From Paracoccaceae bacterium (GTDB lineage: Bacteria > Pseudomonadota > Alphaproteobacteria > Rhodobacterales > Rhodobacteraceae), in contig JAWPMR010000001.1 of the NCBI GenBank assembly GCA_033344815.1, forward strand, positions 2,218,136-2,282,135: DNA of 64,000 nucleotides, read 5' to 3'. The notes under the pieces are model-generated. The model saw only the letters and a list, made by a program, of their open reading frames with translations, had not been told where the DNA came from and did no database searches. Both the position numbers and the translations under genes were made by a program. Below are positions 24,901-41,227 of the stretch, in pieces; the stretch's first letter is position 1; every line of letters starts with the position of its first letter.

Positions 24901-25348
24901 CCGAAACAGTTCCGTATTGCTCAGGTGGTTCGGTCGTATCAGGACGACCGCTTTGAGCCGATTTCTGACCGGTGGGTTCATCCGCCACATCGGCTTTGGC
25001 ATCTTCATCCGTCGCAAATTCAGTTTTACGCGGCGATCTCAGATAAGGTCGCAGAGCACTCAACAGCTTTTCTGAAAAACTGCGGCGCACATCGCTCCAT
25101 ATCGGGTCCTCGGGCCAGTCACCCAAATCAATTTCCAGCACCTCGGCCCTTGCCTGCGCACCAGAATCGGAAAGATCTTCTAATACTTGCTCCAATACTG
25201 GTAGCAACTGCGTTCTGGTATGTGAGAGTATAGCTTCGGGCGTTGCGAGTGGACCATTTCCGGAGACCACGTCAAAGTCGATCACCATTGTGCCAACGGA
25301 ATGCACGGGCTCTCCAGCCATTGTTTTTTGAGCAGCACCCGAACTCAT
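21893..25348 (-). CDS. CIS tape measure protein (Afp14-like)
   Basis: An 1151-residue protein with conserved ends and a variable middle. Residues 15-110 match the N-terminal CIS_TMP pattern (VIDFDVVSGN, LLPVLEQVLEDLSD, VLEIDLGDWPED). Residues 987-1151 match the C-terminal pattern: LILFHPYLPMLFERLALLDE, then a helix with VEKMLLGLP, SVIERWGALGQTSADGLREA, WILRVDIGPFDMLLDRLPW and LPWM. The 200-900 region is rich in Gln, Pro, Ser, Asp and Glu and looks disordered. Tape measures set tube length and may hold cargo. It overlaps the baseplate gene upstream by 4 bases. Confidence 0.92.
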   Translation of the reverse strand: MSSGAAQKTMAGEPVHSVGTMVIDFDVVSGNGPLATPEAILSHTRTQLLPVLEQVLEDLSDSGAQARAEVLEIDLGDWPEDPIWSDVRRSFSEKLLSALRPYLRSPRKTEFATDEDAKADVADEPTGQKSAQSGRPDTTEPPEQYGTVSGVAKDEAACLIAYLARLRLLMRGQVDAARRAAMSRAIAALVGVEKPGTGPDWSLQGAVSEAVRSLDAEAQSVLRTLIGSQERSTGLKIIDRKPSYTNPSEGVSENLAAAAPSQQKTAREPNGGKSDDAKKDFAKVPKALWDDQDHADPSQLIHQAKRLNTPQSVSRNALASEQAGSDVPQETERDIADTLVEQLAAVTRRAQMIEGPLAQLIQKSGTPQPLAAERAHALAPHIAMLSLDVVQDEPALRTSASNEDQETGRNRRAEQTSRDTARRSPSATDHQASRSDPNPVPTGQLQAPTEPDISPDDQIKVRQDYHDPPIHAHDSAPDRNRVQADPNIVQRGHKTARADRETKPLDPGEEEFNQHDAPMDRMFHPQPLTVSDPDLWMRLLIAAGHPREDVLEALAVIYGSESEGPDASPAALETPTGQTAKAKPKEGDPSSLLSETELLRSLQDLARDQERQINPGKQIPNEDNPQHVEGIDVPAKAIDQTSDSIGLAGAASSGQSNFTKGAKELQPRSLREPIVSTITSVAEEIDFQSGKYWRAVFDMIWRALPIDPQDANSLGVGSRAAENVAEPAPLGDSRSNSEIETPGLVAPMSKQSSSSQTISPDGSSNEMLEPDALTAKLNQDAADAEASPVSDPKSTEPSLKAPRRPGGDQSGEPRAESKPWIEASAENQGAKVSNNKIHSSAELEVQSATDRPEVNQNVDSPEQDLPLTVEQNHNTDHIRAIMALVTAPRGPDDRFEAFLEARIADLFPDIPKRRNALRQVAARLSYSDRMYPPHLRQIALSSIEQLLSVLTSAKAPSEGDACTETDRTGRVDQDAHPASPARAFLSERGGLILFHPYLPMLFERLALLDEKRQIPKENMPAARRALQVIADQEAPQDQPTDPVEKMLLGLPQNWALPSTHVLTPSDVALINSLLVSVIERWGALGQTSADGLREAFIRRNAVLKQQETGWILRVDIGPFDMLLDRLPWSFGTIALPWMPEPCIVHWRDSDV

Positions 25349-27510
25349 GTCACGGCCCGCCCCTCGGACAGTAAGGCGCGCAATTCACGTTTGGCGTCAG
25401 CGTCATCTTGCAGATACCGTTCATGCAACACCTCGAAACGCGCCATTTCCGGTTGACTGAGCCAATACGGTACAATCCTCAGATGGGCCGGAGAGAGAGT
25501 CTCGATCAATCGCTCCACATAGGCGCGATATGTCGGTTGGCTGCTACGTGCCGTCCACCCGGTCAACACAAGTGTTGCAGTGTTGGGGCTGAAATCACTG
25601 CTGACACTGCGCAGCAGAATATCTTCGATGAGGAACGCACCTTCTGAATTTGCGTGGATCGCCCGCCAACTTGCGCGCATGCGCTGTGTGAATATTTTTG
25701 CCGCCTGCGCACTTGGAAACATTTCACACAAATAGAGATGGGTTTCATCGCCTGAGTCAAAGAAGACCGCATGGGAATTTTCCTCGGTTCGCGACACAAT
25801 AAACGACCGCGGATCGGCGGCGCGCAAGAACAAGTCCGGGGAACACTTGCCATCCACGATCCAAGGGCTGGCGTGCAACAGATCGGCTTCCGGCAATTGT
25901 TGTGCAACTGGATCATGCGGGACCAGCATGTCGAAGGGATCATCAGGCAGTTTCAATGCGTTGCGTGGGTAGTCAGGCTCGAAGCCTTCGTTGTCAAACT
26001 GAAGCGAAAGGTCAAATCTGACCATCTCCTGAGCCAGATTGCTGTGGTGATCCAGATCCGCTAGCAGGCGAAACTTTGCAAGAAACGCACCGGGAACCTC
26101 ACCGTCAGGACCCGTGCCGCGACCCCGGTTAAAGTAAGGTAGTGCTGCGAGAAAATCGAGGCGCCAACGGATATCAAAGAATGCCCGATCGGCAGCGCTG
26201 CGATAAGTATGAAGCCCTGCGTGGCGCGTGACAGGCATTTCTTCGCCCTGATGGGCGATCAGATAGTCCAACAAATCGACGCGGTGGCGTTGAACGGCGG
26301 GGTCGTCGGAAGCCGCATCCGTGGTGGCAGTCAGAAAAGCGGGCAAATCCCGTAATGTCCCTGACATTTCAGCCAGATGCGCGTTCACCGCTGAGCGATA
26401 GCGCGCCAGCAAGCTTGCTTCGGTCGACGTCTTGGCACCAGCCACATAGACACCCGGCAACAAGGCATCGACGGGCACCTGATCGAAGTTGCGACGCTGG
26501 CCCGCAGTGGGCGGGAGCCAATCATCGGCTTTGAGGTGATGCTGCGCCTGTGCGATATGTTCTGCCGAAACCCGTACGAACTCTTCAAGGATCTGACTCG
26601 GATCCAGTTTCAAGGGCACATCGTCCAGCGTCAGTTCCAACTCAATATCAGCGACAGTTTCCGGCAACGTCAGATCAAGGTAATAGGCTTCTGCCGGATC
26701 TTCCCCGTCGCGCGGCGTGATGGGCTGACTTGACAGAGAGAACGTGGACACATCAATGACTCCGGGAATCTCGCGAAAGTCGGCCAGGTAATCCTCAAGG
26801 TTCGGGACGCTGCTATCCTGATCAGAAGGCGCATGCAAAAAGGCCTGAGGATGATCATAAACTGTCTGACGCGTGGCCCCTTCATTGGCCCGGTGCCCAA
26901 CCGCCTGTCCCCGTAGAATCGCAGAGACATGAAAGTATATTTCTGCTGCAACCCGTTCCGGAATGGCCGTCGCGGTTATTTTGACGCTCCCAGTAAGCAT
27001 TGCAGACATACGTTTCGCCACATAGAGACGATTAAGATCACAGGCCAAAGGCCGCCGGGATCGAAAGGCAGTGCGAACTTTCTTTTTGGCCTGCTCACGA
27101 TGGTTTTGTATCGTTTCGCCATGAGCAGAGCGCGCAGGGATGACAACCGCATCAAATAGCCCTGAACGCGGTCCACGAGACACCAGAACACGCGAAATTC
27201 CATCTACTTCGGTAAGTTCTGTCGCCAGATCGAGCATCGTTACCGGATCACCCGGCAAGACCTGCGACGGCAAAAACAGCGATAATCCGTTGAATCGAAT
27301 ATCGCCTCTGTCGTTCGTCAGTAAATCAGCCGTGCTGTGGACGGCCTGAAACGACACTTCACTCAATGCAAAACAAGTCTGTTCCAACAGAGTAACACCG
27401 GGGTCATGAAGGTTGTAATCGGTCCAGATGTTGCCAGAGGCGGCCTGCGCAAACCCAATCGCTGATCGACGCAGCGTATCAAAATCCTTGGGGGCAGGCG
27501 GTGAGGTCAT
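25345..27510 (-). CDS. CIS baseplate wedge protein (Afp12-like, second gp6/J-type)
   Basis: A 721-residue protein. Its N-terminal NIWTDYNLHDPGVTLLEQTCFAL (quoted in part: DYNLHDPGVTLLE at 31-43) is the hallmark of the second baseplate wedge protein in CIS loci, together with VDGISRVLVSRGPRSGLFD. The C-terminal half includes AQEMVRFDLSLQFDNEGFEP, WIVDGKCSPDLFLRA and LSPAHLRIVPYWL, the last being another recurrent CIS motif. It would pair with the larger baseplate J protein to form the wedge that triggers sheath contraction. Four-base overlaps on both sides show coupled translation. Confidence 0.9.
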   Translation of the reverse strand: MTSPPAPKDFDTLRRSAIGFAQAASGNIWTDYNLHDPGVTLLEQTCFALSEVSFQAVHSTADLLTNDRGDIRFNGLSLFLPSQVLPGDPVTMLDLATELTEVDGISRVLVSRGPRSGLFDAVVIPARSAHGETIQNHREQAKKKVRTAFRSRRPLACDLNRLYVAKRMSAMLTGSVKITATAIPERVAAEIYFHVSAILRGQAVGHRANEGATRQTVYDHPQAFLHAPSDQDSSVPNLEDYLADFREIPGVIDVSTFSLSSQPITPRDGEDPAEAYYLDLTLPETVADIELELTLDDVPLKLDPSQILEEFVRVSAEHIAQAQHHLKADDWLPPTAGQRRNFDQVPVDALLPGVYVAGAKTSTEASLLARYRSAVNAHLAEMSGTLRDLPAFLTATTDAASDDPAVQRHRVDLLDYLIAHQGEEMPVTRHAGLHTYRSAADRAFFDIRWRLDFLAALPYFNRGRGTGPDGEVPGAFLAKFRLLADLDHHSNLAQEMVRFDLSLQFDNEGFEPDYPRNALKLPDDPFDMLVPHDPVAQQLPEADLLHASPWIVDGKCSPDLFLRAADPRSFIVSRTEENSHAVFFDSGDETHLYLCEMFPSAQAAKIFTQRMRASWRAIHANSEGAFLIEDILLRSVSSDFSPNTATLVLTGWTARSSQPTYRAYVERLIETLSPAHLRIVPYWLSQPEMARFEVLHERYLQDDADAKRELRALLSEGRAVT

Positions 27511-28364
27511 AACAACCCCTCATCCCTGTCGGTGTTACGGCGTGATCCCTCCATCAGGGAATCGAACCACAAGCGTGTCAGGTAGTAGCGAATATTCTTG
27601 CCTGCACCGTAGTTTGCATTTGAGCGCAGTTGCAGTTTGAAGTGATGACGCTCATCTGTCGCCACCCAACGCAGTTTCAGCCGGTCCGCATAGCTGCCAT
27701 AGACTGCGGTTTGCGCGCGAATACGACGGCGACCAAACATCCAGTTCAGGATCGGGTTTCGGGGATGAAATGCGTTCATCGCGATCGCATGTAGCATCGC
27801 ATAGTGACCGGCATTCACTTCAGCCCCTGCGCCTGCCATGACTTCAAAGGCCTGGCAACCGGTCATCGCGGACGTAATATCATGCCATTTGCCATCGGCC
27901 GGGATATGCGCAATATCAGGTGATGGCATACCCACCCGCCCCGCCATTCGGGCCACGCCATTGACGTCGAGCCGCCATGCAGGGTTTTCGGCGTCCAGAC
28001 CTGCTCTTCCGTCACGCGTCAGGCTCAAACCCCGTGCTTTGGTCTGAGGCGCATCGTTGTCAAGCTGGTTCGCCTGTGCTCCTTGCTGTGGTTTGAAATG
28101 CAATGCGCCGGGTGCCTGACCGGAAGTTGTTGAACCATGCTCGATGGTCCATGACGGTGTCGGCGTGCTGAGCCCCTGATACAGGCTCATTACGCGCAAA
28201 GACGTCCCGACAGAATTCAGGTTCAAACCGTCTATCGCAGTTTTGGAATACCCATCTTCGACAGTATTTACATTACTGTCGATCAGATCGCGATAGTGCT
28301 CTGCTGTCGGCAGAGCGCCTTCGCGGAAAAAGGATTTGAGCGTCGTACGATCTTGTTTTGTCAC
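27507..28364 (-). CDS. Putative CIS tail-fibre / receptor-binding protein
   Basis: A 285-residue protein. The start LKSFFREGALPTAEHYRDLI, followed by DSNVNTVEDGY, matches a motif I recognise from fibre-like proteins in CIS loci (a short helix-turn-helix with PT..x..LIDS). The middle (GLSLTRDGRAGLDAENPAWRLDVNGVARMAGRVG) is like the collar segments that precede trimeric fibre tips. The C-terminal 120 residues (DGKWHDITSAMTGCQAFEVMAGAG) form a beta-rich end domain of unknown binding target. It lies between the two baseplate wedge genes, with 4-base overlaps. At this size it would be a short fibre compared with Afp13. The fibre role is an inference. Confidence 0.7.
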   Translation of the reverse strand: MTKQDRTTLKSFFREGALPTAEHYRDLIDSNVNTVEDGYSKTAIDGLNLNSVGTSLRVMSLYQGLSTPTPSWTIEHGSTTSGQAPGALHFKPQQGAQANQLDNDAPQTKARGLSLTRDGRAGLDAENPAWRLDVNGVARMAGRVGMPSPDIAHIPADGKWHDITSAMTGCQAFEVMAGAGAEVNAGHYAMLHAIAMNAFHPRNPILNWMFGRRRIRAQTAVYGSYADRLKLRWVATDERHHFKLQLRSNANYGAGKNIRYYLTRLWFDSLMEGSRRNTDRDEGLL

Positions 28365-31300
28365 GAATTAGTCCCCTGGCCCACGATGAGCATGTCGCCA
28401 ATTGACAACCGTCCAATACCGCTTTGCGTCGGTCGGTCGTCGTTAGTTCTTAGAAGTGGCTTCAGCGCGTGATCGGTAGCTGACAACGGCAGGCTCCACG
28501 GTTGGGCTGCGGTGATCCAGGGCCCATGCGGCCCACGCGTATCAGACTGCGCAGTGTCCATGAGGACATGTGTGCCCGCATCATCAGACGCGAGGTGCAG
28601 CACGGAAAAGTCATTTATGCGGTGCACGTAATCAAGCGCATTGATATGCGCGCGCAGCAGTTTGACATTCAAAGACCAGCCGAAACGTTTCAGTGGATCA
28701 GGTGCTGTCCAAACGGAGAGATACCGGTTCAGATGCGTTTTGAGGCGTTGCGCCATCGCCCCATCATCCCGGTCACGATCAAAGACCAGACTGGCCCGCA
28801 CATGCAGACGCTCAAAGCTGGGGTTGACGATGTCATATGTGGCAAATTCCGAACCAAGCCGGGTCAGATGATCCCGTATCCGCTGCAGGGTTGCCACATC
28901 AAAGACCAGCGGCGTTATCGGCGCGTCTGCCTTAATAACAGGCGGTTTTCGCACCACGACAACTGTCACCTGCCCGGGGGCTGGTTGAGGGGAGCGGCGA
29001 TCCAGATGCGGCAGGCATTTGACCATCCAGACTTCAGGAAAGGCATCCAGAACGAGCCGTTCAACGTCCCAGGGCGTGACGGCGCGCTTGCGATGACGTA
29101 ACCGCTCACCTACCCGAGCGGTGAAATCACGTATTGTTTCCGGGGGACGAACGTCAGCAGCAACCGGCACTTCAACGGGCGCTGACAGACCCGCCTGAGC
29201 GGGTTCGAAATTCCAGGCACGCGCCGTATCCGACCCGTCGTAGCTGGCATCAGTACAAAGCGACCAGACGCCATTGATATCAATTGAAGTGACACTGGGA
29301 AACACGCTCAGGTCGGGCTTTGTGGCCACAGCCGCAAGCCATGCGCCCTCATTGGGCATTTCCGAGGTCACCTTGATTGCATCCTCGGGCAAGTTGATCG
29401 CAACAAGTCCGGACCGCATAAGGTCGGCAGTACTGTCTGATGCAATGGCTGTCGCGGGGAGAGGCGCCCATCCCGTAAACGTCAGATAATACCAGTCGAC
29501 CGGGTTCGGCTCAGGCACCCGGCGCAGATGCCCTTTATCCGCAACGTTGAACAACAATGTCAAAGGCCCCGTCGCATCGCGGCCGCTGATCTGAATGAAA
29601 AGATGTCCGTATCCAAGCCGGGGGGGAAACAGCGATATACTGCGCAACGTTCTTTTGGGAAATACTTCGACCTGCCCGAAAGGCCCCACTTGCACGACCT
29701 TCTCGCCCAACCTTGCGGTTTGCGGCGCGTTTATCTCTATCTTTGCATGTGCCGTATATGAAAGTGAGATAGTGGAAATACGCGGCACATAGGGCGCAGA
29801 CGGTACAGGACGCGGCGGTAAAACCGGTGCAGGCAAAAGTCTCGGACGCATCGCCTTGACCAAAGCAAACGGATACTCATCTGCCAGAAACCCGTTGGCG
29901 GTGCCGGTCAGGGTCAAGCTGATCATCCCCGCAGGTATTTTCTGACGCGCACTGAAATCCTGAGCGGTCAATTCGCGGTTCGCAGGGTTTGAGGGTGCAT
30001 ATAACGGGCTGTCAAAGGTCCATTCAGAACTGATCTCACCCAGATCCGACCGTTCAAACATCGGTAGCTCTTTGTCACCCAGCGCTTTCCAGCCATCTCC
30101 ACTGAGAAACGCCAGTGTCAGTTTTGGATCGGGCACATCTCGGGTTTTGGCATAGTTTTTATAGTGAGCCTCAAACCCTCCCATCGCGGCTGGCGTATCC
30201 GCCCAGGTCACGTTGACGCCCACATCAGTGATCGGTTTTGTTGCCATTTCCATGCAGCCGACCCAGATCGAAGCGCCATCTTTTGGACGTGCGCCGAAAG
30301 GCATGAAGGACTGGTCCGTTACAACCGGGCCATCATCGGAAAATGCTACAATCTGCTTTACCCCTACCGCCTTCACCCGAATGTCGAAATTCTTGACCTG
30401 ATACCGTTCGAAAAAGGACACGGGACACACCCGCGCATTGGCAGCGTAACGTAGTGACAATACAGGCGCTGATGCTGGCTCAATCGCTGCAATCGCGGGC
30501 AAGGTATCGTTCAATTTCAGCTTCAGGGTCAGCCCGGCATTGCCTGCATGCGTATTGGACAGAACCTGGGTCACTGATGCATGCACCGGCCCCTCTTGCG
30601 TACTCAATGTAATGGCAAAAGCATCACTGAGCAGTTTTTCGAAAACATCTTCTGATGCCAGAACGAATGTCCCGTCGTCTGTTGTCTCAAACGCATCAAA
30701 TATCATCGACTGATGATCGGTATGTCCCTCCATCAATGCAGATTGGCCGCTCAGTTCTGCGCGACAAACATCTATTTTTGCGCGCAGCGCCTTCCAGTAA
30801 TCACCGCTGGGAAACGTGCGTGTTTCAATCAAACTGAGAGTCACAATACGGCCCAGCAGAATACGCAGCGATGATACACTGAGAGCGTGATGGGCCAGCA
30901 CTTCATACACCAGCGACAGCGACAGTGTAACGCGCCTCTCTGCCGCCAGAGCCTGAACCTTTCGCGCCACACGTTCAATGCTTACGTCAAGATCAGACTG
31001 GCTGAAGGCTTCCATCAACTCCGGGTCTTCGCGCAGCGACAAAACCAGATCAGGATCCAGCGGGTCCTTTCCAGTGCTCGTCATCGGCCTGTCGGGTCGA
31101 TGGGTAGATTGCGCAGGTAATGCGCTGCGTCGCGTCATGTTGATTGACACTTCGATCCAGCGCTCACCTTCTGCCAGCGCAAACATCGGCGAAGCAAGAT
31201 CAAGACCAAGCCTTACGGGGTCAGTGGTTGTCGGTGAAAAGACCGGTTGCGCATTGATCCGAGGGCCCGGTGGATAGGCTTCGGCACGCACGCCACTAAT

Positions 31301-32320
31301 CCCGTTCAGCGTCGCATTGAGTGAGATCAGCGGATCCATATCATAGCTCAAGACCGCAGTTTGCGCCAATGTCGCCTGACTGACAGGCACAGTAGCTTCG
31401 GTTTCAAACTGTTGGATCGACCCCGTTTCTGTGCGGGCCTGAAGTTTTGTTCCCTTTGCCAAGGCGCCCGACTGGCGGCTGTTTGGCAAATGCAGCAGAA
31501 CCCGCTCGCGCGAGGGTCCAGCGGGTTCCTGACCAATCACATCGCGGTAATAGTACTGCGTGAACCGATCCAGAAAATCATTGATCTGCGTCTCGACCAA
31601 CATGGAAGTTCGCAGTTCCGCGATCAAAAGCCCCAGCGTCGGATCCATGTTACCCGATGCGATACGGGCCTCAAAAGCGGTTTGCGCCATGGGTTGGAGG
31701 GTGGCCACGGTATTGCGTAAAAGCGCATGGTTGCCACGCAGCCCTGTTTCAATCGCACGCGCTTTTTGCAACGCATCACGATCGTCAGACAGCGCACGTG
31801 CGGATACACCCCAGCTCTTGACAGCCGCCAGAACATCTTTGCTTTTGTTGCGTGACAGACTGTTCAGGCGGTGGATCAGATCGGCCTCGGCATTGATTTG
31901 AGCAATCTGTTTTGAAAAAATGGTCAGCTGTGCCGTTTCGATCCTTGCCAGCCAATCCCGAAGGCACCGCGACAAATCTCCAATCTGCTGAATGGCCGCG
32001 TCAGGATCTTCCTCCATTGCCCTTTCAAACCGGCGCGCCTCATCTTCGGGATGGAACGAGAGTACCTCGGCAAGAACATAGGCCGGCTCAGACAAAAACA
32101 GACGCGCCCATGGCCCTACATCGGCGGCGCTGATTAAATGGACATTCTGCGCGCCCAAGTGTTTCCCCGCGCGACAAAACGACTGGGCCAAGTCTAGCGG
32201 CAAAAGTTTCAATGACCGTTCTTCTAAAGGCTGCGGCAGGCGCAACCGATCCAGTGCACCCGGCGTGACCGCTATGTTTTTCCAGTCTGTCAGCACATCC
32301 AACCACGGCATTGGGAGCAA
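28361..32320 (-). CDS. CIS baseplate J / gp6-like wedge protein (Afp11-like)
   Basis: A 1319-residue protein, the largest wedge component. The baseplate J signature is in the last quarter: RDFTARVGERLRHRKRAVTP, then WDVERLVLDAFPEVWMVKCL (about 1064-1103), and FERLHVRASLVFD, LNRYLSVWTAPDP. The first 600 residues are helical and include the LPNSRQSGALAKGTKLQAR segment of CIS wedge proteins. The first in-frame start is TTG at 32320, with ATG at 32311 three codons later; neither has a good ribosome site, whereas GGGGGAATTT precedes an out-of-frame ATG at 32385. The true start is therefore uncertain. A 125-base gap, the only sizeable one in the structural operon, lies before it. Confidence 0.92.
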   Translation of the reverse strand: MLPMPWLDVLTDWKNIAVTPGALDRLRLPQPLEERSLKLLPLDLAQSFCRAGKHLGAQNVHLISAADVGPWARLFLSEPAYVLAEVLSFHPEDEARRFERAMEEDPDAAIQQIGDLSRCLRDWLARIETAQLTIFSKQIAQINAEADLIHRLNSLSRNKSKDVLAAVKSWGVSARALSDDRDALQKARAIETGLRGNHALLRNTVATLQPMAQTAFEARIASGNMDPTLGLLIAELRTSMLVETQINDFLDRFTQYYYRDVIGQEPAGPSRERVLLHLPNSRQSGALAKGTKLQARTETGSIQQFETEATVPVSQATLAQTAVLSYDMDPLISLNATLNGISGVRAEAYPPGPRINAQPVFSPTTTDPVRLGLDLASPMFALAEGERWIEVSINMTRRSALPAQSTHRPDRPMTSTGKDPLDPDLVLSLREDPELMEAFSQSDLDVSIERVARKVQALAAERRVTLSLSLVYEVLAHHALSVSSLRILLGRIVTLSLIETRTFPSGDYWKALRAKIDVCRAELSGQSALMEGHTDHQSMIFDAFETTDDGTFVLASEDVFEKLLSDAFAITLSTQEGPVHASVTQVLSNTHAGNAGLTLKLKLNDTLPAIAAIEPASAPVLSLRYAANARVCPVSFFERYQVKNFDIRVKAVGVKQIVAFSDDGPVVTDQSFMPFGARPKDGASIWVGCMEMATKPITDVGVNVTWADTPAAMGGFEAHYKNYAKTRDVPDPKLTLAFLSGDGWKALGDKELPMFERSDLGEISSEWTFDSPLYAPSNPANRELTAQDFSARQKIPAGMISLTLTGTANGFLADEYPFALVKAMRPRLLPAPVLPPRPVPSAPYVPRISTISLSYTAHAKIEINAPQTARLGEKVVQVGPFGQVEVFPKRTLRSISLFPPRLGYGHLFIQISGRDATGPLTLLFNVADKGHLRRVPEPNPVDWYYLTFTGWAPLPATAIASDSTADLMRSGLVAINLPEDAIKVTSEMPNEGAWLAAVATKPDLSVFPSVTSIDINGVWSLCTDASYDGSDTARAWNFEPAQAGLSAPVEVPVAADVRPPETIRDFTARVGERLRHRKRAVTPWDVERLVLDAFPEVWMVKCLPHLDRRSPQPAPGQVTVVVVRKPPVIKADAPITPLVFDVATLQRIRDHLTRLGSEFATYDIVNPSFERLHVRASLVFDRDRDDGAMAQRLKTHLNRYLSVWTAPDPLKRFGWSLNVKLLRAHINALDYVHRINDFSVLHLASDDAGTHVLMDTAQSDTRGPHGPWITAAQPWSLPLSATDHALKPLLRTNDDRPTQSGIGRLSIGDMLIVGQGTNS

Positions 32321-32445: not shown

Positions 32446-33408
32446 TTAGAGCGAATTATCAGAGAGGAAGACGGCTGATAACGTACCGATATCGCTCTCA
32501 ATAGAAAAAATACCACCAAAGGCATCAGGTGGTGCGGGACGTTCCTGATTTGCAAACTGCATGGACTCGAAATTTGACCGCGCGGGTGCAACAGATCGGC
32601 CGATGGCAAATGGACTTGTGGTACGGCCTTCTTCAGAAACAACTTTTACGCTGCCCTGACCGCTGCTGATCACGCGTGTCCCGCACACGCCCAGATTTGC
32701 CCAGGTCAAGCTGTCGAATGGCAGAGCGGCACCTTCAGTCACCTCCAGCGACTTGGCCAGGAAACGTGCACGTCCGGAGCCATAGCCAATGTCAACACTG
32801 AAGCTCCCCTGTGCCAGTGAGGTATTGATCGTGCCATCTTCGAGAAAATTAGTGAGTGAAACCTGCACTGTCCCGCTATACAACGCACGCCCCGTCGTAG
32901 GGATTTCGAAACCCGCTGCGCTGGTTCCGACCACAAGCGGGCCCGTATAATCAATGCGATCCGCGCGATAGGTCATATCGTAAACCGCTGGCAATGTGTC
33001 GGATTTTGGAAACCCTTCGCGAGGGATTACAGTGGAGCGGCGCGAGCCGGACAATTCCCCTTCGCCTGAAAGGGACAGCCGCCGGATCTTACTGTCGTCA
33101 AATGCTAGATTTCGAGGCAACCCACTGCTACGCGGCACGCCTGTGATCGAGAACATGTCGTAGCCTTCCGTGGCTGTGACCTGCCGAAGGTAGGCCCCTA
33201 TCAACCGCTTTCCTTCCAGTTTGGTGACGTTGCAGGGCTCAACCGGTGCCAGGCCCAGCCTTTCGCCAACAGCGCTGGACTTAAAGGCGTCAATCGGCCC
33301 GCAACTCGTCAGTGCCACCGCCGAAACCGTCAGGATCACGCAAAGACGTTTTATCCGGGGTCGACACGCGGAAGGTTTATCAAGAGCATTCGCCATAGAG
33401 CGCGTCAC
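32446..33408 (-). CDS. Beta-rich outer-membrane lipoprotein inside the CIS baseplate genes
   Basis: A 320-residue protein with a lipoprotein signal: a basic start, hydrophobic stretch VILTVSAVALTS, and lipobox Cys36. Gly at +2 favours outer-membrane sorting. The mature part is beta-rich. Its C-terminal half (GRALYSGTVQVSLTNFLEDG, GSFSVDIGYGSGRARF, PDAFGGIFSIESDIG, GTLSAVFLS) recalls the eight-stranded barrel of transferrin-binding-protein-like surface lipoproteins, though this is pattern memory only. It overlaps gp25 by 4 bases, so it is translated with the baseplate. Canonical Afp and PVC operons have no lipoprotein here. It might tether the particle to the outer membrane; that is inference. 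Confidence 0.75.
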   Translation of the reverse strand: MTRSMANALDKPSACRPRIKRLCVILTVSAVALTSCGPIDAFKSSAVGERLGLAPVEPCNVTKLEGKRLIGAYLRQVTATEGYDMFSITGVPRSSGLPRNLAFDDSKIRRLSLSGEGELSGSRRSTVIPREGFPKSDTLPAVYDMTYRADRIDYTGPLVVGTSAAGFEIPTTGRALYSGTVQVSLTNFLEDGTINTSLAQGSFSVDIGYGSGRARFLAKSLEVTEGAALPFDSLTWANLGVCGTRVISSGQGSVKVVSEEGRTTSPFAIGRSVAPARSNFESMQFANQERPAPPDAFGGIFSIESDIGTLSAVFLSDNSL

Positions 33409-33842
33409 ACTGCAGGGATGGGCAAATCGGATACCAAGGTGCCTTCGTTGATATAGTAGGGAAACACCATATTGTGGCGCGTGTTGGTCTGATTGACCGT
33501 ATAGCTCAACTCAATTCTCAACACCCCCCCGGCCCAGTCCCGTGTCACGACATTAACGGATTTCAGAGTGATGCGCGGCTCAAAGAACAAAATTGCCTGC
33601 GTGATCGCAACCCGTATGGCGGCGGCGGTCTCGCCATTCATTGGCGCAAAAACCAGATCATGCAGTCTGCAGCCATAAGTCGGATGCATGACCCTCTCAC
33701 CCGGCCGGGTTTCCAGCAAAATCCGCAGGCTTTCCACAATATCTTCTTCGCTTTGTGACAGATAGGCCTGCCCGGTATGACCATCAAACCGGGGCGGAAA
33801 AGACCACCCACGTCCCAGAAAAGAAGGATCATTTTGCGCCAT
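33405..33842 (-). CDS. GPW/gp25 family baseplate protein (Afp9-like)
   Basis: A 145-residue protein of the T4 gp25 / lysozyme-like fold family that nucleates sheath polymerisation on the baseplate. The family core is visible: QSEEDIVESLRILLETRPGE, then RVMHPTYGCRLHDLVFAPMN, and IRVAITQAILFFEPRITL. It starts one base after the PAAR stop (TGAGATG) and uses the GGAGG at the end of the PAAR frame. The conserved EPR is the gp25 signature next to the sheath-binding face. Confidence 0.95.
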   Translation of the reverse strand: MAQNDPSFLGRGWSFPPRFDGHTGQAYLSQSEEDIVESLRILLETRPGERVMHPTYGCRLHDLVFAPMNGETAAAIRVAITQAILFFEPRITLKSVNVVTRDWAGGVLRIELSYTVNQTNTRHNMVFPYYINEGTLVSDLPIPAV

Positions 33843-34145: not shown

Positions 34146-35912
34146 CTAATTGATCATCACGATGGAGCCTTTGACGACAGTCTGGCCACTTGACGAAATT
34201 TCCGCACCAGCAGCGCCCGAAGCCTTGAATTGCGTCTGCGCCGTCAATTCGACATTCATCCCTTTGACAGTCGCGTCACCCGTCGCCTGAAGCGCAATTT
34301 TACCTTTTGCTTTCAGGGTGATGTCCCCAGGGCTGTCCAGTGTAATTCCATCGCTGGTCATTTGCATTTTGTTACTGTTGCTGTCCGTAATGACGATGCT
34401 CTCTTCGTCATCGCTCAAAACAACACTGTGACCGCCTGGTGTTTCGAGCGTCAGAATTTTCTTCTGGTCCTCAAACTCGATTTTCAGTTGCGATTTGGTG
34501 ACGATCGCCTTGAACGTGTTTGGATCATCGGGCGCATAGGGCTGTTCGTTTGATCCATTGTGCAAAGAGCCCAGGATCACCGGCGCATTTGGGTCCGCGT
34601 TGAAAAAGGCTACAACAACCTCGTCGTCTTTTTCTGGCATGAACTGTATCCCGGCTTGACCCGACGAATAGGGCGCCGCATATCGCGCCCAGACCAGCGT
34701 TTCCTCGGTGCCGAACATCGGTAGTTTGATCTGAATCCGCAGGCGTGCGTCCGGATCCTCGATTATTTGAACCACCTTGCCGATCTGCAATCCCGGGATT
34801 GGCGTGCTGATGGCCGCCGCATCCGCTCCCCCCAAATCAGAACTATCCGAGCGCCAGCCGTCGGGCAGCCCCATGATGACTTCGGTCGTCCACTCTCCGC
34901 CCTCTAATTTGTGTTCCACCCCGGCGACGTAGGCCTTACCGCCAAAGCGGTCCCCAACACCGACGATTTCAATCACGGTATCAGGCAAGGGCAATGCATT
35001 GCCAATAAAGGAGCACCGCCCTTGCAGCGCAGAAAGCGAAGACCGCAGTCTGCGCGCGGAAGCCATGACACCGATGTCTGAGGCTTCAATCATATCCGGT
35101 GCCGCAAAACTGTGCTCCTGCGCCCCGATGATCTCTGACAATGTGGCATCCGTCAGGTTTCCCCATCCCAGCGCGGGTGGATTGTCGCCCGTCTTTGAGA
35201 CCGTCTTTTGGGTGCTGTCATCCCAGGACATCCCAGAGGCCGCGCCGATCAACCCACTGGTGTCGACGGCCGCGTCAAAGGAAATGATGTCTACGCCCAA
35301 GGTCAGCGTCAAAACTTCCGAGCCACTGGTATTCGGCTCGGATGCCTTAATTGTCCCATCGTCGGCCACAAGTACAAATCCATTGCGATCGGCCAACATC
35401 CTCAGGAAATCCCAATCGGTACTATTGTGCTGTACCTGATCCTGAACGCTCATCTTGCCGGCGGCCACATCCGCGGTGAGCCCGGCATTGCCAATGACCT
35501 GTTTCATGGCGTCACTGTCATTCTTTTCCTTGAACTGCGCCGTTCGTTTGATGACATTCAATCCAGCTGAATTGTCTCGGCACGTAAGGATCATTTGGGG
35601 CGGCTTGAGGCCGCGAATGCGCATCCTCTTACCGTATATCTTTCCCTTGAAGAGTAGTCCCGGATCATTTTCACCGAAATAGGCGGAAATCTCGATTGCT
35701 TTGCCAAGATCGAAATCCTTGCCATCAATTTCCGGAAAGTCATTTTCCGGGATTGAGCCGGTTTCAATGGTCACCACCGCTTCTGGGATGCGATTGATCT
35801 GTTTGTAAACCTTGACAGATGCAATCATCAAAGTATCCGCGGTGGCCGCACCGGCCACTTTGATGCTTACCCCAAGCGGTCCGTCGGTGTTCAGTGTTGG
35901 ACTGTCAGCCAT
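34146..35912 (-). CDS. VgrG/gp27-gp5-like spike protein (Afp8-like)
   Basis: A 588-residue central spike. The gp27-like part (1-360) includes KQINRIPEAVVTIETGSIPE and the CIS form of the tube-docking barrels. The gp5 OB-fold follows (about 370-465: GLQIGKVVQIIEDPDARLRI, LVWARYAAPYSS, FFNADPNAPVILGSLHNGSN). The end (500-588) is a beta-helix needle of short repeats such as ITLDSPGDITLKAKGKIALQ. No effector domain is attached at the C-terminus, which ends in VVKGSIVMIN. The gene is 3 bases past the LysM gene stop. Confidence 0.95.
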   Translation of the reverse strand: MADSPTLNTDGPLGVSIKVAGAATADTLMIASVKVYKQINRIPEAVVTIETGSIPENDFPEIDGKDFDLGKAIEISAYFGENDPGLLFKGKIYGKRMRIRGLKPPQMILTCRDNSAGLNVIKRTAQFKEKNDSDAMKQVIGNAGLTADVAAGKMSVQDQVQHNSTDWDFLRMLADRNGFVLVADDGTIKASEPNTSGSEVLTLTLGVDIISFDAAVDTSGLIGAASGMSWDDSTQKTVSKTGDNPPALGWGNLTDATLSEIIGAQEHSFAAPDMIEASDIGVMASARRLRSSLSALQGRCSFIGNALPLPDTVIEIVGVGDRFGGKAYVAGVEHKLEGGEWTTEVIMGLPDGWRSDSSDLGGADAAAISTPIPGLQIGKVVQIIEDPDARLRIQIKLPMFGTEETLVWARYAAPYSSGQAGIQFMPEKDDEVVVAFFNADPNAPVILGSLHNGSNEQPYAPDDPNTFKAIVTKSQLKIEFEDQKKILTLETPGGHSVVLSDDEESIVITDSNSNKMQMTSDGITLDSPGDITLKAKGKIALQATGDATVKGMNVELTAQTQFKASGAAGAEISSSGQTVVKGSIVMIN

Positions 35913-35915
35913 AGC

Positions 35916-36605
35916 TTACCTCACTGGCGGAAAGCGCAAGAGTGTGTTGGGCGCAAGGGTGCGAAAGCTGTCGAGGTTATTCAAGCGCGCCACTTCCAGA
36001 TATCGCGAGGCATCGCTGTAGATTTTCTGACACAGCAAGGGGAGGGTATCGCCCTGCCGTACCCGCACCATATGCGTCATATCGGGAGAACTTCGGTCCG
36101 CTTCCCGCGCTTCCTGCGCCTCCGTTATGGCCTCCACAAACGCCAGCGTGAGTTTCGCGCGCAAAGCAGCGCCCTCGGGATGAAACAGTGTGTAATCCAC
36201 CGAGAAACTGGTCAGCCGACCAAAGAAGGCTTCCAGCCCTTCGCCCCAAACGACTTTTACCGGGTTCGGTTCATGCGTGTCACCGTCATAATCATAGGCA
36301 ATGTCACGCAGTTTCTCTATCTGTTCAGCGACGGTCACATCACGGGCATCCGCCACTACGCCGGTGCCATCCAGCGTTATCGCAAAATCCAGCTTTTCCG
36401 GTTCGGCGCTTGCGAATTTTGTAATTGCTGCGGATTTCCCGATCGCGCCTGCGCCACTTGCTTGCGACGTCCCGGAATATTTCAAACCCATTTTGTGGGT
36501 ATACTTCTCCGGATTGATGGTGGCTTCAAAGATATTGTCATCGCCGGATTGCTCCTCGATCTGATCATTGTTGATCTTGCAGCGAATGATCTTGAGCTTG
36601 GCCAC
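35916..36605 (-). CDS. CIS tube-initiator protein with LysM domain (Afp7-like)
   Basis: A 229-residue protein. Residues 1-160 match the CIS tube family (ATINPEKYTHKMGLKYSGTS, PVKVVWGEGLEAFFGRLTSF, SVDYTLFHPEGAALRAKLTL). Residues 174-225 are a LysM domain (MVRVRQGDTLPLLCQKIYSD, then LEVARLNNLDSFRTLAPNTL). Proteins of this type join the spike and baseplate to the first tube ring; the LysM part is a structural baseplate clamp in the known particles and may not bind peptidoglycan. Gaps of 3 bases on both sides fit the operon. Confidence 0.95.
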   Translation of the reverse strand: MAKLKIIRCKINNDQIEEQSGDDNIFEATINPEKYTHKMGLKYSGTSQASGAGAIGKSAAITKFASAEPEKLDFAITLDGTGVVADARDVTVAEQIEKLRDIAYDYDGDTHEPNPVKVVWGEGLEAFFGRLTSFSVDYTLFHPEGAALRAKLTLAFVEAITEAQEAREADRSSPDMTHMVRVRQGDTLPLLCQKIYSDASRYLEVARLNNLDSFRTLAPNTLLRFPPVR

Positions 36606-36608
36606 GGG

Positions 36609-36782
36609 CTACTGTTCCCGAGCGCGGCGGTCCGCCTCTTCCAATAAGTCGTGCATTTCGTCCAACAGCGTTTGGCGCACCATCGACAACTGCTCTTCGA
36701 GTTCTTCCGGGCTGACACCGCCCTTTCCCGCGGCTTGACCAAAGGTGCCACGCACAACAAGACTGCCAATTTCCACCGCCAT
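36609..36782 (-). CDS. DUF5908 small CIS protein (Afp6-like)
   Basis: A 57-residue protein beginning MAVEIGSLVVRGTFGQAAGK, the hallmark of DUF5908, followed by a helical acidic C-terminus (SPEELEEQLSMVRQTLLDEM). ATG at 36782 shares one base with the tube gene stop (TGATG); a longer frame upstream is only the opposite reading of the tube gene. The function of Afp6 homologues is not established, but the position between tube and LysM genes is constant across CIS loci. Confidence 0.9.
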   Translation of the reverse strand: MAVEIGSLVVRGTFGQAAGKGGVSPEELEEQLSMVRQTLLDEMHDLLEEADRRAREQ

Positions 36783-37237
36783 CACATCATCCTTTTCAGC
36801 GTGGTATAGGAGAATTCGATCGTTTCGATCGCGAGTTCGTTTTTCATCGCATCCAGATTGCCAACGGTCCATTTGATCGGAAACGCATTGCCAATCGACC
36901 ATGTCGCCACTGGGATCCGATTTTCGCTCAGCAGCGCGACGACCATGTCCTTGGGCACAATCGCCTCGGAAAAATCCCCTTCAAGAGTGGACTTGCACCA
37001 TTGTACCAGCCCGCTCGCCATGGTTGTCATAGAGCGCTTGAGCACAAGGTTAGAGTGCTTAACCGACTTGGGCAACTGATGCACAAATCGGTTTTCACCG
37101 CCTTCCGTCAAGGGCTCCAGTTCGATTGAGCTTTCCAAACCGGAAACCTCCTGGAACGCCATATCCGGCACCGGTGGAATAAGCCCCACAAACGATACCG
37201 AAAAATGAAACGCGACAGGAGGGTCCATCAGTTTCAT
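36782..37237 (-). CDS. CIS inner tube protein, second paralogue (Afp5-like)
   Basis: A 151-residue tube protein of the T4 gp19 family. It starts MKLMDPPVAFHFSVSFVGLI, then VPDMAFQEVSGLESSIELEP and GNAFPIKWTVGNLDAMKNELA, and ends IETIEFSYTTLKRMM. In Afp/PVC the Afp5-type paralogue forms the first tube ring above the baseplate, while Afp1-type forms the rest. The placement next to DUF5908 and LysM genes supports that role here. Confidence 0.94.
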   Translation of the reverse strand: MKLMDPPVAFHFSVSFVGLIPPVPDMAFQEVSGLESSIELEPLTEGGENRFVHQLPKSVKHSNLVLKRSMTTMASGLVQWCKSTLEGDFSEAIVPKDMVVALLSENRIPVATWSIGNAFPIKWTVGNLDAMKNELAIETIEFSYTTLKRMM

Positions 37238-37241
37238 GGAA

Positions 37242-37700
37242 TTACGCGTTCTCGATCACGAACCCTTCGTGGGCAATCTCAACGCTTTCCACGGCGACCT
37301 CGTTGCCATCCGCCTTGAGGTCCGTGCCCGTCACCTTCACCGGAAAGGCGTTTTGCACCTTCCAGACCATGGTGGGGTTTTGCGCTTCATCCAGTAATGA
37401 AATCGTCAGCGCTTTGCGCTTGATCGTGTTCATCTTGATCTCAGCGAACCAGTCGAAAATAGCGTTGTCTTTGACAAACACACCTTTCTTCATGGTGATG
37501 TTGCCGGACTTAATCATCCCCGGCATTTTGATCGTTGAAAACACGGGGTTGTTGCCTGCGCGGTATTCTATGACCTCGCTTTCGATATCGAGGCCAGAGA
37601 CCTCCTGAAAGGCCAGTTCCGTGTCATCCCATTTCACCTGAAAATGAAACTTCGGGAGCGGCCAGACTGCCTGCGTTTGGGCGGAGCCATCATCTGCCAT
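37242..37700 (-). CDS. CIS inner tube protein, main paralogue (Afp1-like)
   Basis: A 152-residue gp19-family tube protein: LPKFHFQVKWDDTELAFQEV, then SGLDIESEVIEYRAGNNPVF, MPGMIKSGNITMKKGVFV and VQNAFPVKVTGTDLKADGNE. The SGLD and NAFP motifs mark the hexamer interface. It lies between the sheath and the second tube gene and is expected to build most of the tube lumen. Confidence 0.95.
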   Translation of the reverse strand: MADDGSAQTQAVWPLPKFHFQVKWDDTELAFQEVSGLDIESEVIEYRAGNNPVFSTIKMPGMIKSGNITMKKGVFVKDNAIFDWFAEIKMNTIKRKALTISLLDEAQNPTMVWKVQNAFPVKVTGTDLKADGNEVAVESVEIAHEGFVIENA

Positions 37701-37729: not shown

Positions 37730-39904
37730 TTACGATTTTTGCATTTGCTGCTGGAAAGTGACTTCGATGAATTCTGCAGGGCGTGTCACGGCCACCAGAA
37801 CGGTGATCCTCAGAATGCCCTCAAGAATATCGACCGGCGTCATGGTCTCACCCAGACCGACGTGCACACTAAACGCATCCGTCGGCACAGCGCCTGCCAA
37901 TCCGCCCGCTTTCCAGACCGAAGTCAGGAAGTTCTCGATCATGGAGCGCATTGTCACCCAGGTTTGCGCCGTGTTGGGCTCAAACACATAGGCCTTGGAG
38001 GCCAGCCGGATTGATTCCTCGATCATGATCATCGTGCGGCGCACATTGATGTAACGCCAATCGAGACTGTTCCCATCCAGCGTCCGAGCGCCCCAAACAA
38101 GCGTCCCCTCACCCACAAACGGACGGATCGCATTGATCGATTTACCCGTGGTCGATACGTTTAGGTTTTCCTGCTCCTCGTGATTGATGTTGACCTTGGG
38201 GCCAACTACAGAGTTCACCGACACATTCGCCGGGGCCTTCCAGACACCACGGTTTGCGTCCACCGCCGTATAAATCCCGGCCATCGCTGCTGCCGGCGGC
38301 ATCGCATTCATATAGGCCGTGATCTCATTCATCACATCCGTGTAAAGTGGCACGGTTGCGCGCAATGTTTTGTCAATTGTGGCTGCAGATGGGTTGTCAA
38401 AGACCGGACCCGTCACAGGCCCATCCATCAAAATGCGCAACAAAGCCGGTGCGGTTTCCGCCCCGTCACTGTCCACAATGGTGTAACTTGCAACAGCCTC
38501 TGGTCCGGCAAATTCAGGGTTCGGCTTGAATGTCACCTTGCCCGTTTTGGCCACACTCCAGTCGCCCACACCTTTTTGCGACTTGGCTTTGCCCTCCGCA
38601 TCATCGGAATCGATCAGTTTGACGCTTGCTTTATCCGCGCCAGGATGATCGGCGGCGACATTAATCTCAACGGCCGTACCCGCCTCAACCGCGCTTGGAT
38701 CCAACAGTCCGCCAACGACTTCCACGTCGATGGTTTTTGCATCCGTTGCGATGCCGTTCTTATCCGTCACGATGAGATCGAACTTGCCCTTCGCACCAGC
38801 GTCCGCTTGGTGAACAAAAGACACCTTGCCCGCTTTCAGGTCGGCCTGCGTGAAGCTCGTCGCATCCGCGCCATCGACTTTCAGCGCACCGGCCATGTCA
38901 TCCGTGCCACCGTCCAGTTGATAGATCAGATCTTCATCACCCGTATCATCGTCCTGGGAAACCACGTCCTTTTCCGTAACAGCAACAGTGCCGCCCCGCG
39001 TTACGGACAGGGTAAAATCACCCGCCAGAACCGGCGCACCGACGCGGTCGATTTCCGGCGAAAGTTCCGGGTCCCGCTTTACGCTGCGCTTCATCAATCC
39101 GATGAACATTTTGCGGCTTTTGGCATCAACATTTTCAAAGTCAAAATCGCGCGACTGATAAATCGAGGTATCAAGCCACGGATAATAGGTCGTACCAAAA
39201 TCCAGATCGTTGATGCCGATGTCATTGCGGAACGTGGCAACGGGATTGCCCAGAGGGTCCGCCTGTGCCAGATGCCCGCCAGAAATGTCGAGGATCGCAA
39301 AGCGGTTCTTCATGTCCGAGCCGCAGTGTTTCAACATCGCCTGCTGCACTTTTACCGCATTCTGACGCACCATGCGCGTGGTTTCCGGGATGACCACCAT
39401 CGTGGGTTCAGGTTCTTTCTTCAGTAAAGAAATCCCGGCCATGACCTTGTTGGCGTCGATCTCGTCATCCGCATATGTGCCAACCGAAACGATGTAGCAG
39501 GCGCCACCGCCGTTTTGGAAGAACAGCCGCATCGCGCCGTAAAGAGCATAAGCCTTGTTGGTTTGTTTGAGCTCGAAAGCTTCCTCTCCCTGCGGCCCCT
39601 GGGTGGTAAATTTCGCGCGCGGTAGTGCCGCAGGTTTGGCTGCGCCCTCAGGAGAGAGCGGTGACACATCGTCAAATTCCGCCCAGGGTATGATCTCGAA
39701 CTTGGGGTCCGGCGCATAGCCAAAATAGCTGTGAAATTCGGACATCGATGTAATCCGCCACGGCGTATTGGACAGCGAAACGTTGCCGTTCATTGCCATC
39801 TCTGTGTAGCCGATAAAGGCCGGTACGGCGGTTGCAACCTGCACAACCGAATTGGGGAATGCGTTTTTCTCAACGATGTAAACGCCCGGCGTCTTCATGG
39901 CCAT
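37730..39904 (-). CDS. CIS contractile sheath protein with inserted adhesin-repeat-like domains
   Basis: A 724-residue sheath, the only one in the cluster. Residues 1-290 hold the sheath N-terminal part (MKTPGVYIVEKNAFPNSVVQ, ATAVPAFIGYTE, FQNGGGACYIVSVG). Residues 510-724 are the conserved C-terminal tail-sheath domain (TVPLYTDVMNEITAYMN, GPKVNINHEEQENLN, INAIRPFVGEGTLVWGARTL, VTFQQQMQK). Between them, about 295-495, is an insert: VTRGGTVAVTEKDVVSQDDD and FTQADLKAGKVSFVHQAD look like a CSPG/cadherin-like repeat, and VTFKPNPEFAGPEAVASYTI, VDSDGAE like a CshA-type fibril repeat. ATG at 39904 follows GGAG. The insert should face outward on the particle (inference). Confidence 0.95.
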   Translation of the reverse strand: MAMKTPGVYIVEKNAFPNSVVQVATAVPAFIGYTEMAMNGNVSLSNTPWRITSMSEFHSYFGYAPDPKFEIIPWAEFDDVSPLSPEGAAKPAALPRAKFTTQGPQGEEAFELKQTNKAYALYGAMRLFFQNGGGACYIVSVGTYADDEIDANKVMAGISLLKKEPEPTMVVIPETTRMVRQNAVKVQQAMLKHCGSDMKNRFAILDISGGHLAQADPLGNPVATFRNDIGINDLDFGTTYYPWLDTSIYQSRDFDFENVDAKSRKMFIGLMKRSVKRDPELSPEIDRVGAPVLAGDFTLSVTRGGTVAVTEKDVVSQDDDTGDEDLIYQLDGGTDDMAGALKVDGADATSFTQADLKAGKVSFVHQADAGAKGKFDLIVTDKNGIATDAKTIDVEVVGGLLDPSAVEAGTAVEINVAADHPGADKASVKLIDSDDAEGKAKSQKGVGDWSVAKTGKVTFKPNPEFAGPEAVASYTIVDSDGAETAPALLRILMDGPVTGPVFDNPSAATIDKTLRATVPLYTDVMNEITAYMNAMPPAAAMAGIYTAVDANRGVWKAPANVSVNSVVGPKVNINHEEQENLNVSTTGKSINAIRPFVGEGTLVWGARTLDGNSLDWRYINVRRTMIMIEESIRLASKAYVFEPNTAQTWVTMRSMIENFLTSVWKAGGLAGAVPTDAFSVHVGLGETMTPVDILEGILRITVLVAVTRPAEFIEVTFQQQMQKS

Positions 39905-39917
39905 TTTCAGATCTCCT

Positions 39918-40646
39918 TCACCATAGTGAGACGTAAATGTCTGATTGCAGGCGCGCAGCGCTACCTGGCTGTTGTTCGATCGGTTTGAACGAAATCCCCG
40001 CTGCGGGGAGGACTGGTACAAGTGCTTCGGGCCCAAACGCACTGGGCCGCTGTAACGTGAATTTTTGGGTTGGCCGCGCGCGCGCTGGAAGCGGTCTGTC
40101 AGAGCGAATAACAAAGGCCTGTTTGCCGTTTGGCAAAACAACAGCGCCTAAAGGGGAAAAAGTCGTCTTGGATGCAGGATCCACGATCTCCAGATCCTCC
40201 GAACTTTGCGCGCCAGTGACATGATAAGCCCAAAGCGCTTCAACCGCGCTGAAGTGGACGGAACAAAACCTCTCCTGATCCGGGAGTAGCGCAAACCTCA
40301 GTCGCGCCAGACGTTGGGCCTGCGTCTGTGGTAGCCGGTCTGTCGCATCAGTGGCATGAAATTCAAACGCGTCACCCGCGACATCAAAGGCCAGCACATG
40401 ATGCCAGTCCGCATCCTGAGTCACGATAAAAACGTCCGGGTTCATAGCGCCAATGTCGAGCAACAGCGCATCGGGACGCGCGTCCCCATCATCAGCAACA
40501 ACCAGAATTTCATTGCCGCTTTGACGCAGAATTAAACCAGCTTTCGAAAACGCATGTGCATCTGCTGGTGAAACCCGCAACGGAACATTTTCAGATCCAT
40601 AAAAGTCATGCGACAAGGTCAATGTCAGGATCTCGCGATAGGCCAT
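39918..40646 (-). CDS. CIS-associated protein of unknown function between cap and sheath genes
   Basis: A 242-residue protein starting MAYREILTLTLSHDFYGSEN, then VPLRVSPADAHAFSKAGLIL. I recognise this opening from unnamed proteins that sit next to DUF4255 in other CIS loci, but no function is known to me. There is no signal peptide or membrane helix; the rest is a predicted beta-rich fold with ALWAYHVTGAQSSEDLEI and LQRPSAFGPEALVPVLP. The start shares one base with the upstream DUF4255 stop (TGATG), and it ends 13 bases before the sheath start. A structural or assembly role in the distal cap is a fair guess. Confidence 0.8.
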   Translation of the reverse strand: MAYREILTLTLSHDFYGSENVPLRVSPADAHAFSKAGLILRQSGNEILVVADDGDARPDALLLDIGAMNPDVFIVTQDADWHHVLAFDVAGDAFEFHATDATDRLPQTQAQRLARLRFALLPDQERFCSVHFSAVEALWAYHVTGAQSSEDLEIVDPASKTTFSPLGAVVLPNGKQAFVIRSDRPLPARARPTQKFTLQRPSAFGPEALVPVLPAAGISFKPIEQQPGSAARLQSDIYVSLW

Positions 40647-41227
40647 CAGGACGCACCCCCGCCCTGACTTGCCGACTGGCCAGGTCGTGTAATCAGCGGC
40701 ACCACTTCGGAAACGGCACCCGCATCAATCATCACCGAGCGCATTTTGAACATCACCGATGGTACATAACGTCCACCAAGATTGCCCCACAACTGACCCA
40801 TTTCCTCAACCTTGAGGTTGGCGATGTCGAGGCTGAGTTGATTCAAACCCGAGGGCATGTCCGGCGTATTGCGTGGAGTCATGACCGGGTTGGCCTGAAA
40901 GTAGGTCAACGCCGAGGAGATCAGCTTAAGCCCCTCTCCGTAAGTTTCCGCATCATAGGCCGACGCCAGCATGAAATAGATATCTAGATGAATAGGTTGC
41001 GCCTGCATCATTTGCACGGTGCCGCGACCACCAGCGGACGCACGCGGCGTTGAATCCTGCGCGATGTTTGTCAGGAACAGAACCAACCGGTTGCGCGCGT
41101 CTGCCGTAGGCTTCCCCTCGGCATCCACCAGCGGCGATATACTGACCAATTCATCCGGAACGCCATACCGAGCGGTAAGATGACTGTTTAGTCGTTGAGC
41201 GACCAGACCCAGAGCCAGATCAATCAC
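40646..41227 (-). CDS. DUF4255 / Pvc16-family sheath-tube terminator (Afp16-like)
   Basis: A 193-residue protein beginning at GTG: MIDLALGLVAQRLNSHLTAR, then DELVSISPLVDAEGKP, RLVLFLTNIAQDSTPR, IHLDIYFMLASAYDAETYGE and GLKLISSALTYFQANPVMTP. These are the features of the Pvc16 N-terminal family (DUF4255). In Afp and PVC the homologue caps the tube and sheath at the end distal to the baseplate. Being first in the structural operon, it would be translated ahead of sheath and tube. Upstream AT-rich DNA probably holds the operon promoter. Confidence 0.93.
   Translation of the reverse strand: MIDLALGLVAQRLNSHLTARYGVPDELVSISPLVDAEGKPTADARNRLVLFLTNIAQDSTPRASAGGRGTVQMMQAQPIHLDIYFMLASAYDAETYGEGLKLISSALTYFQANPVMTPRNTPDMPSGLNQLSLDIANLKVEEMGQLWGNLGGRYVPSVMFKMRSVMIDAGAVSEVVPLITRPGQSASQGGGAS

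Follow-up and report, generated by a model that had tools for sequence, protein, structure and literature searches.

A CSPG-type and a CshA-type domain inserted between the two halves of a contractile sheath protein, with a possible role as surface arms

We analysed a 64,000-nucleotide stretch of DNA (the window) from a Paracoccaceae bacterium (GCA_033344815.1, contig JAWPMR010000001.1, positions 2,218,136 to 2,282,135), whose genome consists of a single 5.08-Mb contig. Judged from sequence, a 724-residue protein encoded here is the sheath of a contractile injection system resembling AlgoCIS and SalCIS, in a gene cluster that is apparently intact. Its open reading frame (ORF) runs from 39904 to 37730 on the minus strand, begins MAMKTPGVY, and holds two domains, D1 and D2, between the conserved sheath halves; the limits of D1 and D2 (about residues 289–397 and 398–496) were set by the predicted model together with alignment.

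37730..39904, minus strand: contractile sheath gene, 724 residues (ORF, Pfam, alignment to solved sheaths)
39140..39898, minus strand: N-terminal conserved sheath half, residues 3–255
39041..39139, minus strand: linker leading into the insert, residues 256–288, a helix in the predicted model
38714..39040, minus strand: D1, CSPG/NG2-type (Cadherin_3) domain, residues 289–397
38417..38713, minus strand: D2, CshA/Big_9-type Ig-like domain, residues 398–496
37733..38383, minus strand: C-terminal conserved sheath half, residues 508–724

A profile search of the insert, suggested in a preliminary description of this DNA, returned Pfam matches above their curated cut-offs for Cadherin_3 (residues 291–383, E 8.7e-14, 51.8 bits against 25.5), Big_9 (residues 405–484, E 3.7e-8) and CshA_repeat (residues 423–484, E 6.4e-8, 33.6 bits against 27); a Cadherin_5 match falls under its cut-off. 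Phage_sheath_1 (residues 526–608) and Phage_sheath_1C (residues 615–718), both likewise above their cut-offs, lie in the C-terminal half. The motifs quoted in the preliminary description are all present, with FTQADLKAGKVSFVH starting at residue 351, VTFKPNPEF at 457 and VDSDGAE at 477, and its division of the insert into a CSPG/cadherin-like first part and a CshA-type second part agrees with both Pfam and the predicted fold, which supports the two domain identities: D1 is CSPG4-like, with CSPG4 as the best non-sheath fold match, and D2 is CshA/Big_9-type. The NCBIfam model CshA_fibril_rpt (TIGR04225) gave E 3.3e-9, but because its 37.5 bits fall short of the whole-protein cut-off of 60, the sheath is, by sequence, not a CshA-type fibril protein. 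Similarly, Cadherin_3 is present as a single copy and not as the tandem array of an extracellular protein, and D1 is a CSPG-type domain within a sheath, not a CSPG-type protein. Extra, often Ig-like, domains are described on many phage sheaths (PMC9230969; citations here and below refer to the excerpts of these papers available to us), which would suit an ordinary gp18-type sheath domain, and a low-complexity artefact could also be imagined; the family matches above cut-off, the CSPG4 fold match and the conservation across relatives make either very improbable. A normal gp18-type domain and an insert packed inside, the two outcomes that the preliminary description had named as contradicting it, are both disfavoured, with a structure prediction that modelled the sheath core poorly.

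The insert occupies a slot known from solved structures. The closest of these is the 519-residue sheath 9r9h, of the SalCis system according to entry 9rce, which aligns to residues 2–260 and 502–724 (E 8.3e-174) and leaves about 240 residues between the aligned halves, compared with about 54 in 9r9h; the earlier claim of an insert splitting the sheath at about residues 295–495 thus holds, with limits here of about 289–496. The AlgoCIS sheath, Alg2, aligns by phmmer over its residues 4–242 and 488–692, leaving 243–487 unaligned. Domains III and IV of the AlgoCIS sheath point outwards, and Alg2 residues 288–320 and 430–446 belong to a poorly resolved outer domain, printed as ‘VI’ and evidently IV (PMC8894135). 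Because these residues fall inside the unaligned stretch, the insert is placed in Alg2’s outward slot, where two tandem domains, predicted to be beta-sandwiches, fill the space between the conserved halves. Outward exposure of D1–D2, which the preliminary description had raised and for which the support is homology with the AlgoCIS slot, is likely, as is a count of six arms per ring, which follows from the hexameric layers of AlgoCIS.

Across the sheaths measured, the slot ranges from 3 to 352 residues, and its contents differ strongly between systems. Two neighbouring sheath genes occur in each of the genomes G175 (L122) and G486 (L100, L116), with slots of about 211–216 versus 16–18 residues. 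Such very different slot contents are what would be expected of a spacer, and the insert is acidic (37 Asp/Glu against 18 Lys/Arg over 208 residues), both consistent with the arms serving as a steric or charge coat against aggregation or against sticking to the producing cell’s own contents. This explanation is nevertheless improbable, as conserved family signatures and two adjoining adhesin-type families exceed what a generic coat would need.

We then considered the distribution of the insert. Among named contigs, the closest sheath (96%) belongs to an uncultured Roseobacter sp. Sheath matches at E 0.001, including weak ones, were found in 22 of the 59 genomes of a search among relatives, the source genome included, and in 14 of 18 other genomes of the genus; 13 of these 14 hold ORFs of 747–802 residues and one, G010, a 515-residue sheath without the insert. 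Related sheaths at E 1e-20 occur in 32 of the 292 genomes searched from the order and in 26 of the 398 searched from the phylum, two sets that overlap. When 26 sheaths, that of the window among them, were aligned (alignment A1), Cadherin_3 was matched in 21, CshA_repeat in 20 and Big_9 in 15 (E 0.01), a recurrence that exceeds chance; among 49 further sheaths, picked from 115 sheath-like ORFs, five match Cadherin_3. From the same 115 ORFs, leaving out 17 duplicates or cut sequences, 28 without a match to the N-terminal half and 10 with overlapping halves, we built a quick tree from the cores of 61 sheaths (60 plus the window), which carries a long-branch caution. A clade of 29 rows (Shimodaira–Hasegawa-like approximate likelihood ratio test, SH-aLRT, 100) is nested in it among sheaths without D1 or D2; both domains are present in 25 of the 29, D2 alone in one and D1 alone in another, and two lack both. 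The comparison with relatives’ sheaths that the preliminary description had proposed therefore finds the insert to be clade-wide. Outside the clade, on a long branch, lies L078, a divergent D1-only sheath most similar to the Rhodobacterales group in its N-terminal half and insert; a mosaic origin for it is not supported, its C-terminal half lying at a similar distance from L076 (54%) and from L101 (57%), a member of another group.

The sheath is the sole Cadherin_3 match in the source genome, and at 1e-5 Cadherin_3 matches occur in nine of 198 genomes of the family: three in ORFs of 780–805 residues (two known sheaths and a further ORF in G786) and six in ORFs of 945–2850 residues. Big_9 has 45 matches in the source genome, mostly in two ORFs of 5272 and 8006 residues, the giant Big_9-repeat genes recorded at G000:C1:2978671-2983317 (with 3917962-3927867). 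A recent capture of the insert from host adhesins is not supported, given the sole genomic Cadherin_3, a guanine–cytosine content resembling that of the flanks and the clade-wide occurrence; an old origin of D2 from the host’s giant Big_9 proteins may be considered. The insert had no match at E 0.01 in the phage collection.

Around the sheath gene, the cluster comprises the following genes.

40646..41227, minus strand: Pvc16_N / DUF4255 protein, cap by homology
39918..40646, minus strand: 242-residue protein without family or solved relative, between the DUF4255 and sheath genes
37242..37700, minus strand: tube protein 1, gp19 family
36782..37237, minus strand: tube protein 2, gp19 family
35916..36605, minus strand: CIS_tube protein (PF19266)
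34146..35912, minus strand: spike-type protein (Phage_base_V)
33405..33842, minus strand: gp25 baseplate wedge protein
32446..33408, minus strand: 320-residue protein, no family found, retained in relatives
28361..32320, minus strand: large baseplate protein, 1319 residues, 9rce_A / Alg11 type
27507..28364, minus strand: 285-residue protein, no family found
25345..27510, minus strand: baseplate protein, 721 residues, SalCis12 / Alg12 type
21893..25348, minus strand: tape-measure protein (CIS_TMP)
20545..21900, minus strand: AAA ATPase
17270..20548, minus strand: 1092-residue protein, hydrophobic N-terminus and C-terminal segments

The closest solved relatives of the two baseplate proteins (1319 and 721 residues) are found among the chains of 9rce, one of which bears the name SalCis12; second-closest is AlgoCIS for the sheath and the 1319-residue protein, and the system of Anabaena for the 721-residue one. 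No tail-fibre or PAAR tip gene was recognised in the cluster, in which the 320-, 285-, 242- and 1092-residue proteins are without family. The 242-residue protein occupies the same position in relatives.

The start of the 1092-residue gene overlaps the AAA gene stop, and its product has three hydrophobic C-terminal segments and, by eye only, a GH18-like motif. It occurs in 14 of 19 genomes of the genus, exactly those with a long-ORF sheath, and in other relatives bearing the cluster; in the genome of L009 it is in pieces, with a stop. Among the rows scored, it is present in 25/25 with D2 and 0/7 others when six insert-less genomes with distant matches are excluded, and in 6/13 rows without D2 when those six are counted as present. 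In this count presence was entered by hand, L020 was not entered, a 6.3e-4 fragment in G183 was scored absent, and nine rows (L002–L004, L006–L008, L017–L019) were assumed to come from genomes of the genus that have the same sheath. As the tree offers only one or two independent pairs, the association is not significant, and it probably reflects cluster integrity, because the D2-less genomes also lack the baseplate protein.

Within the clade, all five sheaths checked beside tube, CIS_tube, spike and gp25 genes (L002, L005, L012, L013, L016) carry both domains, and L021, also in an intact cluster, keeps D2 only. The sheaths of the clade without D2 are L023, with D1 only, L022, with neither domain, and L076, in which the insert is deleted and a remnant of its leading edge is left; for these three, no other cluster genes lie in the flanks examined, and no large baseplate protein was matched in their genomes. 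L023 and L076 share one chromosomal place, flanked by a DUF4139/4140 gene on one side and an asparaginase II gene on the other, and their genomes gave no tube protein match (E 0.001); lone sheath genes so placed, in genomes without a tube or large baseplate match, lie at L023:5878-7890 and L155:11499-13145. The metagenome-assembled genome of L022 has a lone tube gene (L180:7584-8039, 84% identical to the window’s) on a different contig from the sheath, and the stretches examined around the two genes contain nothing else of the cluster, so that its machine may be dispersed and not lost. Since clustered sheaths carry D1 and D2, or D2, and lone sheaths lack D2, the insert accompanies the machine in this clade; that a working machine of the clade tolerates insert loss is not shown, as the D2-less L022, L023 and L076 stand without cluster genes or a large baseplate protein. 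The machine type as such does not need the insert: intact-looking clusters without it exist outside the clade (L025 and, in G010, L154).

In six of eight close pairs, the ratio of nonsynonymous (dN) to synonymous (dS) substitution rates of D1 and D2 was 0.02–0.21, rising to 0.42–0.46 in L013/L014; for the window and L002 it was 0.02 in D1, with D2 saturated. These values, mostly low, indicate that D1–D2 is constrained, and nothing in them points to diversifying selection. We are highly confident of the anatomy as a whole, that is, domain families, predicted fold, slot, clade conservation and purifying selection. Constraint would also fit a fixed structural role, in which D1–D2 contact neighbouring subunits or rings and cement the extended sheath or set the threshold for firing, without any external ligand. 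Further points in favour are that extra sheath domains have been suggested to stabilise the virion (PMC9230969), that the outward domain of AlgoCIS has its tip near domain II of a neighbouring subunit in the distal layer (PMC8894135), and that a phage collar sheath protein is also among the fold matches of D2. Conversely, the insert has diverged more quickly than the core (in the 11 comparisons made with the window, its dN exceeds that of the C-terminal core by a factor of 2.6–11.5; in the pair L003/L004 it is no greater), D2 accepts additional sequence in L013, L014, L015 and L019, the intact cluster of L021 keeps D2 only, and related intact clusters do without the insert. We regard this structural role as possible, though less likely than not. 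The additional sequence in those four sheaths amounts to about 40–46 residues inside D2, rich in Ala, Asp and Lys.

We tentatively favour an explanation in which two-domain outward arms would form an adhesive coat, with a putative binding role. The core sheath halves would contract in the usual manner while each ring displays six two-domain arms, which together would make a multivalent, weakly binding outer coat; this could help a released particle to stay on target or matrix surfaces until the baseplate docks and fires. Contact with a target would require release of the particle, as the sheath protein has no hydrophobic N-terminus. Against this explanation stand intact clusters that lack the insert within the same genus, and the rival explanations are close, which is why our confidence remains below even. 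A stronger form would make the motor sleeve a polyvalent adhesin in its own right, with roughly 138 paired CSPG/CshA-type arms (six per ring in 23 layers, if the layer number is that of AlgoCIS) capturing targets over the full length of the barrel. It is more speculative; if true, target choice would not rest with tail fibres alone.

CSPG4/NG2 repeats, CshA and tandem-95 repeat proteins share fold and family signatures with the insert, but they are surface proteins with many copies of their repeats, whereas the window sheath has one copy of each domain. Among sheaths, Alg2 likewise belongs to a single-sheath system, its halves align and its extra domains project outwards from the same slot, but phmmer aligns only the two halves and not the inserts, and the available excerpts do not name its outer domains as adhesin families (PMC8894135; 7adz, 7aek). 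Phage and other tail sheaths also bear extra beta-sandwich domains, Ig-like and directed away from the tube, for which adhesion has been suggested, but the main text of PMC9230969 nowhere uses the word ‘cadherin’, and its excerpts name no such family for them. In Streptomyces coelicolor, domain 3 of Cis2 is an extra, flexible and unresolved domain on the sheath surface, and particles still assembled with YPet inserted at I274 (PMC10066040); it resembles the insert as an extra surface domain. The statement in the preliminary description that no sheath with such domains had been described is therefore too strong as regards Ig-like and outward domains (PMC9230969, PMC8894135), but of CSPG- or CshA-type domains on a sheath we found no description in a search of the open-access literature, preprints lying outside it; the former, with adhesion proposed, are known, and the latter appear to be new. 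For extra outer sheath domains in general, adhesion and stability have both been put forward as roles (PMC9230969). Here, the arms can be assigned to known adhesin families and are conserved in a bacterial clade, and nature supplies sheaths that have the two domains, a single one or neither, which makes the question of their role directly testable.
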